A stretch of 64,000 nucleotides of DNA, from assembly GCF_030145145.1 (NCBI RefSeq), contig NZ_JAQYWD010000026.1, positions 1 through 64,000 on the forward strand. The letters are read 5' to 3'. Below the pieces are notes generated by a model, which saw only the letters and a list, made by a program, of their open reading frames with translations, did no database searches and had not been told where the DNA came from. Of this stretch, positions 23,134-64,000 are shown piece by piece; position 1 is the first letter of the stretch; each line of letters opens with the position of its first letter. The stretch is from Desulfobacula sp. (lineage in GTDB: Bacteria > Desulfobacterota > Desulfobacteria > Desulfobacterales > Desulfobacteraceae). The position numbers were made by a program, and so were the translations under genes.

Positions 23134-23832
23134 ATGAAAAAGAAAATCATCATCGTCATTGCAATTGCCGTATTTTGTATGGTTCAACAGGGAATGGCGC
23201 AACCCATAGTTTTGGTTGATGTTCCTGTTTTTACGTTTGAATCGGTGCCCGAAGGGGTTCCTATTGCCCATGTGTTTAACGTTAAAAATATCGGGGATAC
23301 CGCGCTTCATATCGACAATGTTTTGCCGCCCTGAGGGTGTGATAAACATTCCTTTGACAGGGACATTCCCCCGGGCGGGGAAGGCAAGATAATGGTGAGC
23401 TTTAAAACCAGTGGATACGGTGGAAAGACCATGAGGAAAAATATCCTGGTCAAGACGAATGATCCGGATAAAAAAAAGTTCAACCTGACGGTCACAGGAC
23501 CGGTGGAAAAAGTTGTGGATATCAGCCCCAGATCGGTTTACCTGAATGGAAACCCAGGTGACACTCTGGATGCTGTTGTCAATATTACCCCGGCGGAAAA
23601 ATATCCTTTTTCAATTCTGGAAATGAAACAGAAGATCAATACTAGAATTAAAGCCCAGCTGATAGAACTCAACGGCGATAAAAAATCCTGGCAGGTTAAA
23701 ATTAAAAGTACGTCAGATACGGCCGGCGATCTGTATGATGTGCTGACCCTTAAAACAGACAGTCCGTACAAACCAAATCTGACCATCAGGGTCTATGCCA
23801 TTTTTATTAAAAAAAAGGAACCCCGTTCTTAA
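23134..23832 (+). CDS. Exported DUF1573 protein, candidate selenoprotein (in-frame TGA as Sec67)
   Basis: One continuous frame from 23134 to 23832 (232 residues) is interrupted only by TGA at 23332-23334. Residues 1-22 are a Sec signal peptide (MKKKIIIVIAIAVFCMVQQGMA). Residues 35-90 match DUF1573, an Ig-like domain found in exported proteins: GVPIAHVFNVKNIGDTALHIDNV, then IPPGGEGKIMVSFKT. In that family the loop between the two halves normally carries a CGC-type motif; here the TGA takes the place of the first Cys and Cys69 follows (U-G-C). A second, Ig-like region fills residues 110-232. A hairpin at SECIS distance lies just downstream. The alternative, a nonsense-mutated pseudogene, is less likely because the frame is intact on both sides for 165 codons. 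Confidence 0.75.
23345..23367 (+). promoter_or_regulatory. Candidate bacterial SECIS hairpin in the DUF1573 gene
   Basis: Downstream of the TGA (23332-23334), 23349-23353 pairs with 23359-23363 (five pairs including one G-U), leaving a small loop near 23354-23358 that contains a G. Outer pairs 45-46 with 66-67 extend the stem past an internal loop. The loop starts about 20 bases after the TGA, within the usual bacterial SECIS range. A second, stronger stem, 23366-23371 with 23377-23382, lies further away and is an alternative. Confidence 0.5.
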
Positions 23833-23868: not shown

Positions 23869-24498
23869 ATGGATATTTCAAAAATAAAAGCAGTGGTCTT
23901 TGACTGTGACGGTGTCATGTTTGATACGGCCGTTGCCAACAGAAAATTTTATGACGAGGTGTTGCAGGCCTTTGGCAAACCCTCTTTGACTGAAGATCAG
24001 TTTGTCAATGTGCATATGATGACGGTCACTGATGCGATTGGCTATCTTTTTTCTGAAATGAAGGACCTTACACGTGTTTATGAGTGCCTTAAACACATTG
24101 GATACCCTAAATTCATCCAGTATATGACCATGGAGAAAGGGTTGAAAGAACTGCTCATATCCCTGAAAGATAACGGGTATATCAGGGGAATCGGCACCAA
24201 CCGGACCAACACCATGGAAAAGGTGCTGGAAGACTTTCACCTGGAAGATTATTTCGAAGTTGTGGTCACGGCACAAACGGTTAAACATCCCAAGCCTGAT
24301 CCTGAGCAATTGCTGCTTATCATGGAAAAATTTAATCTGAAACCGGTTGAGATCCTTTTTGTGGGGGATTCTGAATATGACCAGCAGGCGGCTGTCAATG
24401 CAAAGGTATGGTTTGCCGCATTTAAAAATCCGGCATTACCGGCAGATGTTAATGTGAATTCAATGGATGAAATTGCTAAGATTTTACAGATAAATTAA
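23869..24498 (+). CDS. HAD-family phosphatase (phosphoglycolate phosphatase-like)
   Basis: 209 residues with the HAD motifs in order: I, VVFDCDGVMFDTA (nucleophile Asp); II, GTNRTN (Thr/Ser position); III, KHPKPDPEQL (Lys); IV, FVGDSEYDQQAA (acidic pair). A helical cap follows motif I. It probably hydrolyses a small phosphorylated metabolite; the substrate is not predictable. It lies 36 bases after the DUF1573 gene. Confidence 0.85.
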   Translation: MDISKIKAVVFDCDGVMFDTAVANRKFYDEVLQAFGKPSLTEDQFVNVHMMTVTDAIGYLFSEMKDLTRVYECLKHIGYPKFIQYMTMEKGLKELLISLKDNGYIRGIGTNRTNTMEKVLEDFHLEDYFEVVVTAQTVKHPKPDPEQLLLIMEKFNLKPVEILFVGDSEYDQQAAVNAKVWFAAFKNPALPADVNVNSMDEIAKILQIN

Positions 24499-63556: not shown

Positions 63557-64000
63557 ATGACCCAAAATTTAACACCGGAGAAAGATCTTGCAGGATCTGT
63601 GATGGTTCTCGGCGGCGGGATCGCGGGAATGCAGTCTGCCATTGATTTGGCCAATTCAGGGTACTATGTATACCTGGTTGAAAAATCGTATGCCATCGGC
63701 GGCATGATGGCACAGCTGGATAAGACATTCCCAACCAATGACTGCACCATGTGAGTGATCTCACCCAAACTGGTCGAGGTCGGCCGGCATCTGAATATTG
63801 AATTATTGACAAACACGGATCTTCTTTCGGTTGAAGGAGAAGAGGGAAATTTTATTGCCCGGGTGAAAGAAAACCCCCGGTTTGTTGATTTGTTAAAATG
63901 TACATCTTGCGGGGAATGCACCAAGGTTTGTCCGGTGGATGTGCCCAGTGAACACAATCAGGGCTTAGCCCCTCGAAAAGCTATTTTTAAGCAGTATGAA
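63557..64000 (+). CDS. hdrA: Heterodisulfide reductase subunit A-like selenoprotein (partial, Sec66 at TGA)
   Basis: The 5' part of an HdrA-type FAD/iron-sulfur protein, running off the right edge; 148 codons visible. FAD dinucleotide motif [29 protein letters not shown], then [29 protein letters not shown] and a ferredoxin-type [16 protein letters not shown]. The TGA at 63752-63754 replaces the Cys usual at this place (CSMC in many HdrA), and the frame continues. HdrA-type selenoproteins are known in deltaproteobacteria and methanogens. AGGAGG (63541-63546) lies 10 bases before the ATG. Probable role: electron bifurcation or ferredoxin/heterodisulfide electron transfer. Confidence 0.92.
63770..63787 (+). 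promoter_or_regulatory. Candidate SECIS hairpin of hdrA
   Basis: A 7-bp stem (63770-63776 with 63781-63787, two G-U pairs) closes an AGGU loop with G at the second position. It begins 16 bases after the TGA, matching the bacterial SECIS rule for distance and loop size. Confidence 0.75.

Follow-up and report, generated by a model that had tools for sequence, protein, structure and literature searches.

A DUF1573 gene of Desulfobacula sp. with an in-frame TGA at a conserved Cys position belongs to the selenoprotein family OS_HP2

The gene at positions 23134..23832 (forward strand) of the window, a 64,000-nucleotide stretch of Desulfobacula sp. DNA, codes for a protein of 232 amino acids in which codon 67, a TGA, is very probably decoded as selenocysteine (Sec), making the product a selenoprotein of the OS_HP2 family (DUF1573, PF07610); we put the probability of this reading at about 0.93. 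Sec at this codon is strongly supported, on sequence data only. The gene is an ordinary member of an already known selenoprotein family, since its match to the NCBIfam profile NF041425 lies above the cut-off (119.4 bits against 100) and the family stands in published lists with the motif UGC or UxC.

The open reading frame starts with ATG at 23134 and ends with TAA at 23830-23832. The TGA at 23332..23334 (+) is its sole in-frame stop and is followed by 165 open codons, as had been noticed in an earlier reading made from the sequence alone. In the CGC motif of DUF1573 the TGA stands where the first Cys would be, giving Sec67-Gly68-Cys69 (23332..23340, +), so the [UC]-x-C pattern that goes with OS_HP2 membership is present as TGA-Gly-Cys. 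The DUF1573 match in Pfam covers residues 30-123 (23221..23502, +), scores 60.3 bits against a cut-off of 26.1 and spans the TGA; the two halves indeed form one domain, as the sequence-only reading had it. In a profile search of the 5.66-Mb genome at E ≤0.001, the window gene is the only DUF1573 match.

That reading had also proposed a candidate new selenoprotein, and here it has to be corrected, as the family has an NCBIfam model of its own and has been catalogued repeatedly. A DUF1573 selenoprotein (PF07610) with the motif UGC is listed in PMC9312934 and again in PMC13188914, both citing Zhang and Gladyshev 2007, while the list in PMC2398784 gives OS_HP2 as pfam07610 with UxC. Pfam family and motif in these entries are the same as in the window gene, which shares both the domain and the Sec site with the OS_HP2 family (seleno)protein of NF041425 and shows no essential difference from it; on the SECIS, fusions and neighbourhood of the DUF1573 family the entries themselves are silent. 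Among 395 genomes of the phylum, NF041425 finds a match at E ≤0.001 in 161, and in 45 the match is above the cut-off. A literature search turned up no work on the function of OS_HP2 or of a DUF1573 selenoprotein; PMC10434189, a paper on DUF1573, reportedly deals with iron in Bacteroidetes.

The residue at position 67 was compared among relatives. A match was found in 128 of the 145 related genomes searched, and the loci taken were the best 30 together with 80 further stretches hand-picked among the matches listed, partly overlapping the 30. The 112 hits gave 93 rows after removal of duplicates and 92 usable rows, window gene included, once a shadow piece of the locus L069 had been dropped. The residue-67 column holds TGA in 82 of the 92 rows and a Cys codon (TGC or TGT) in the other 10, that is, one or the other in 92/92, which bears out the earlier proposal that the TGA takes the place of a conserved Cys. 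The motif is U-G-C in 81/82 TGA rows and U-A-S in 1/82, and among the Cys rows C-G-C in 9/10 and C-S-C in 1/10 (L072). The U-A-S relative, L129:4920-4976, may be a variant, a misalignment or a sequence error. In a collection of named records, 241 stretches encode a relative, and the best 80 of these were kept; the motif, sought as [UC]-G-[CU] within the matched range (78/80 rows viewed in context, two without a start), is U-G-C in 80/80. These records come from Desulfobacula, Desulfobacter, Desulfospira and other Desulfobacterales, Desulfobacula being the closest among the best 80 of 241. Some contigs are common to the named records and the 92 rows; the count of 80 is therefore not an independent one, and the named set mainly adds names.

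The genome encodes the machinery for Sec incorporation: selA, selB, selD and a tRNA-Sec (anticodon tca) are all present, as a check suggested with the first reading required. The selD gene of the same genome (G000:C74:71040-71963) has an in-frame TGA of its own. The window contains a second selenoprotein gene, a partial hdrA running off its end (63557..64000, +), in which the TGA at 63752-63754 is codon 66 within the motif NDCTMU; it too had been pointed out from the sequence, and it is a known kind of selenoprotein, HdrA with CxxU being among the selenoproteins listed in PMC2398784. Nine and then ten window frames were scanned for domains with TGA read through (one of the ten without a TGA reading), and TGA positions were determined for six of them, hdrA and five others. 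In those five the TGAs lie outside conserved domains, as expected of ordinary stops, a comparison which is no test of readthrough.

Two other explanations of the TGA have to be weighed against its decoding as Sec. It could be a true stop, left by a disabling mutation in a pseudogene or by an assembly error: TGA is a stop under translation table 11, and five genomes among the relatives listed carry extra stops (one TAG each in G013 and G055, two TAA in G005, one TAA each in G118 and G090). Yet the same TGA stands at one alignment column in 82/92 usable rows and in 80/80 named records and the reading frame downstream of it is conserved in the alignment of relatives; because of its conservation at one column the TGA is no chance stop, and we regard this explanation as practically negligible. 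Hardly more probable is that UGA is read as Trp or Cys through a changed code or plain readthrough. Cys is indeed the alternative residue at column 67, but the complete Sec machinery of the genome and the position of the TGAs in the five other window frames, outside conserved domains, speak against it. The conservation of the TGA and the presence of the Sec machinery thus led to the rejection of a pseudogene, an assembly error and a changed code.

Decoding as Sec is further connected with RNA structure. Two hairpins follow the TGA, of which hairpin B (23366..23382, +) is the best SECIS candidate, with a 6-bp stem, a CGGGC loop at 23372-23376, a TGA-to-loop distance of 37 nt and an energy of -8.9 kcal/mol. 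The bSECIS model given in PMC13188914 comprises a loop of 3-9 nt, a stem of 4-16 bp, a G in the first two loop positions, a spacing of 16-37 nt and an MFE of at most -7.5. Hairpin B lies within all these limits (5-nt loop, 6 bp, G second, 37 nt, -8.9), its spacing being at the upper edge. The sequence-only reading had named a small hairpin with a G in its loop, some 20 bases 3' of the TGA; this structure, hairpin A, exists at 23350..23363 (+) with the loop UGAC, but in the window copy it is weak (-3.1 kcal/mol) and outside the bSECIS energy limit; hairpin B, which that reading did not mention, is the better SECIS candidate. Equally stable structures appeared in 11/200 shuffles for hairpin A and in 48/200 for hairpin B of the window copy, and the energy of B alone is therefore not above chance; the codons for Pro-Pro-Gly-Gly may by themselves promote this hairpin.

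What distinguishes hairpin B is the state of its synonymous sites. In the near group of relatives (44 genes), codons 78, 79, 80, 82 and 83 of the hairpin are nearly fixed synonymously (ATT 43/43, CCC 37/42, CCG 44/44, GGG 42/43 and GAA 43/44, respectively), and the loop codon Gly81 and the post-stem codon Gly84 vary freely. The mean for synonymous sites in this group is 0.69 in hairpin B (7 codons, loop and flanks included) vs 0.16 in the 67 other codons; codons 2, 85 and 109, outside the hairpin, vary about as little as those of the stem. Every cell of the hairpin-B stem pairs in the 43 aligned near-group sequences (41 distinct), and for hairpin A 84.8% of near-group cells pair. By RNAalifold, the near group has hairpin B and the distant group a remnant of B; hairpin A is predicted for neither group.

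A counterpart of hairpin A occurs in distant relatives and shows compensatory changes there, both sides having changed at 4/5 of its pairs (37 sequences). The covariation score of A and B jointly is 0.253 in these 37 sequences, a value reached by 0/500 shuffles, and slid controls in the distant group score ≤0.221; the control slid by -2 has the same number of both-side-change cells (23) and more such pairs (7 vs 5), but far fewer of its cells pair. Mean energies in 9 distant Cys genes vs 38 distant Sec genes are -1.58 vs -6.81 for A and -4.33 vs -10.01 for B (one-sided Mann-Whitney p ~9e-6 and ~4e-6, respectively, uncorrected for relatedness). When codons were randomly recoded synonymously, z fell below -1 in 36/38 distant Sec genes for A and 32/38 for B, and in 4/9 and 0/9 distant Cys genes. 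Among the near Sec genes the effect is clear for A (35/44) and moderate for B (18/44; median z -0.96, which is not exceptionally stable). The case for hairpin B as the SECIS element is thus built on its frozen synonymous sites, the published model and the contrast between Sec and Cys genes, and not on energy. In this comparison of sequences the TGA proves to be linked to a conserved RNA structure, in which hairpin A may take part beside the candidate SECIS hairpin B.

The Cys-form DUF1573 proteins, 10 of the 92 usable rows, have the same domain as the window gene and differ from it in having Cys for Sec and, in the 9 distant Cys genes, weaker downstream hairpins. On a tree of the 92 rows at least 8 Sec/Cys label changes are needed by parsimony, 4 of them forced by well-supported branches, the tree being midpoint-rooted, with long branches and unsettled bootstrap values. 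Shuffled labels need 9.6-9.7 changes on average, and the Cys forms are therefore scattered. In genome G076 the Cys paralogue L072 (CSC) and its Sec sister L071 (UGC) form a group with a support of 100/99, and both fall inside a 45-row clade, also supported at 100/99, which is otherwise Sec. L072 keeps most of hairpin B and is likely to represent a Sec-to-Cys change with a relic SECIS. According to a 2026 review (PMC13188914), Sec-to-Cys substitutions are rare in prokaryotes, the documented cases being mostly FdhA and SelD. For OS_HP2 the chances are roughly even that Sec and Cys were exchanged several times, true Sec-to-Cys losses included, with UGA decoded perhaps via a two-hairpin element. 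The scattered switching and the case of L071 and L072 may be a little new.

The window protein is likely exported via an N-terminal signal, judging by eye from residues 1-22 (23134..23199, +), in line with what the first reading had claimed; in the predicted model residues 3-18 form a helix. The model (mean pLDDT 92.8, pTM 0.79, built on a 50-sequence alignment with Sec modelled as Cys) consists of an N-terminal helix and two all-beta domains, the DUF1573/HYDIN-VesB-like Ig domain of residues 30-123 and a second, Ig-like one at about residues 128-224 (23515..23805, +). Residues 65-68 form a turn between strands 58-64 and 69-74, which places the Sec67-Gly68-Cys69 motif at this turn. In the PDB, the model is matched best by Ig-like ciliary HYDIN/ASH-type domains and by the Porphyromonas protein 2qsv, of unassigned function. 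HYDIN/ASH-type Ig domains resemble the window protein as its best PDB matches (10-15% identity in the first 20) and through a Pfam match to PF22544, but they belong mostly to eukaryotic ciliary and centrosomal proteins. With query TM-scores of 0.32-0.43, the first 20 matches do not cover the two-domain arrangement; a search of solved structures by sequence found no relative (best E 0.25).

Eleven long relatives were viewed by eye and four of them scanned for domains; an OmpA domain (PF00691) lies at the C-terminus of two of the four, L197 and L198. These OmpA-fused OS_HP2 selenoproteins lie at L197:2842-4107 and L198:1812-2975; the fusions fit a periplasmic place near peptidoglycan. In L212:685-2049 and in L205 the second domain appears, by eye, to be repeated after the Sec domain.

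A HAD-family hydrolase gene (23869..24498, +) lies downstream of the window gene. Such a gene is found 3' of OS_HP2 on the same strand in 61/80 loci (79 others and the window), with a median gap of 42 nt, some of the 80 loci ending too early to tell, and it is one frequent neighbourhood link among these loci. The hydrolase passes no equivalog cut-off among the NCBIfam matches listed. The frequent neighbour genes of the 80 loci give no pointer to a redox role or to a substrate.

In the preferred mechanism SelB with Sec-tRNA-Sec decodes UGA at codon 67, guided by a hairpin just 3' of it; this decoding step is well supported. The N-terminal signal would export the protein, whose two Ig-like domains would then fold and display Sec67 and Cys69 on a beta-turn. 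The pair could repeatedly form an Se-S bond and be reduced again, in exchange with a periplasmic partner, and the site may thus serve thiol-disulfide or peroxide handling in the periplasm. Sec is generally used in redox sites (PMC9312934), and it is for this reason, together with the motif, that a redox role is ascribed to the Sec-Gly-Cys site; taken alone, this putative role is somewhat favoured.

Its main rival is metal or metalloid binding (Cu or Hg, for instance) by the Sec-Gly-Cys pair in place of redox chemistry. Such binding would be suited by a beta-turn that carries two soft ligands at a spacing of two residues, His46 in the same domain is nearly invariant in the 50-sequence alignment, and the list in PMC13188914 that includes the DUF1573 family names other selenoproteins for mercury or metal binding. 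However, the same alignment has no further conserved Cys, and the frequent neighbours, most of them without annotation, include no recognised metal gene. We consider metal binding rather unlikely, and a redox role the preferred reading of the site.

The raw-sequence reading of the window gene as a selenoprotein has thus been confirmed and placed in a catalogued family. What the family offers is an Ig-like protein of sulfate reducers whose Sec-Gly-Cys site is conserved and probably lies in the periplasm, and in G076 the pair of Sec and Cys paralogues would allow a direct test of what selenium adds.
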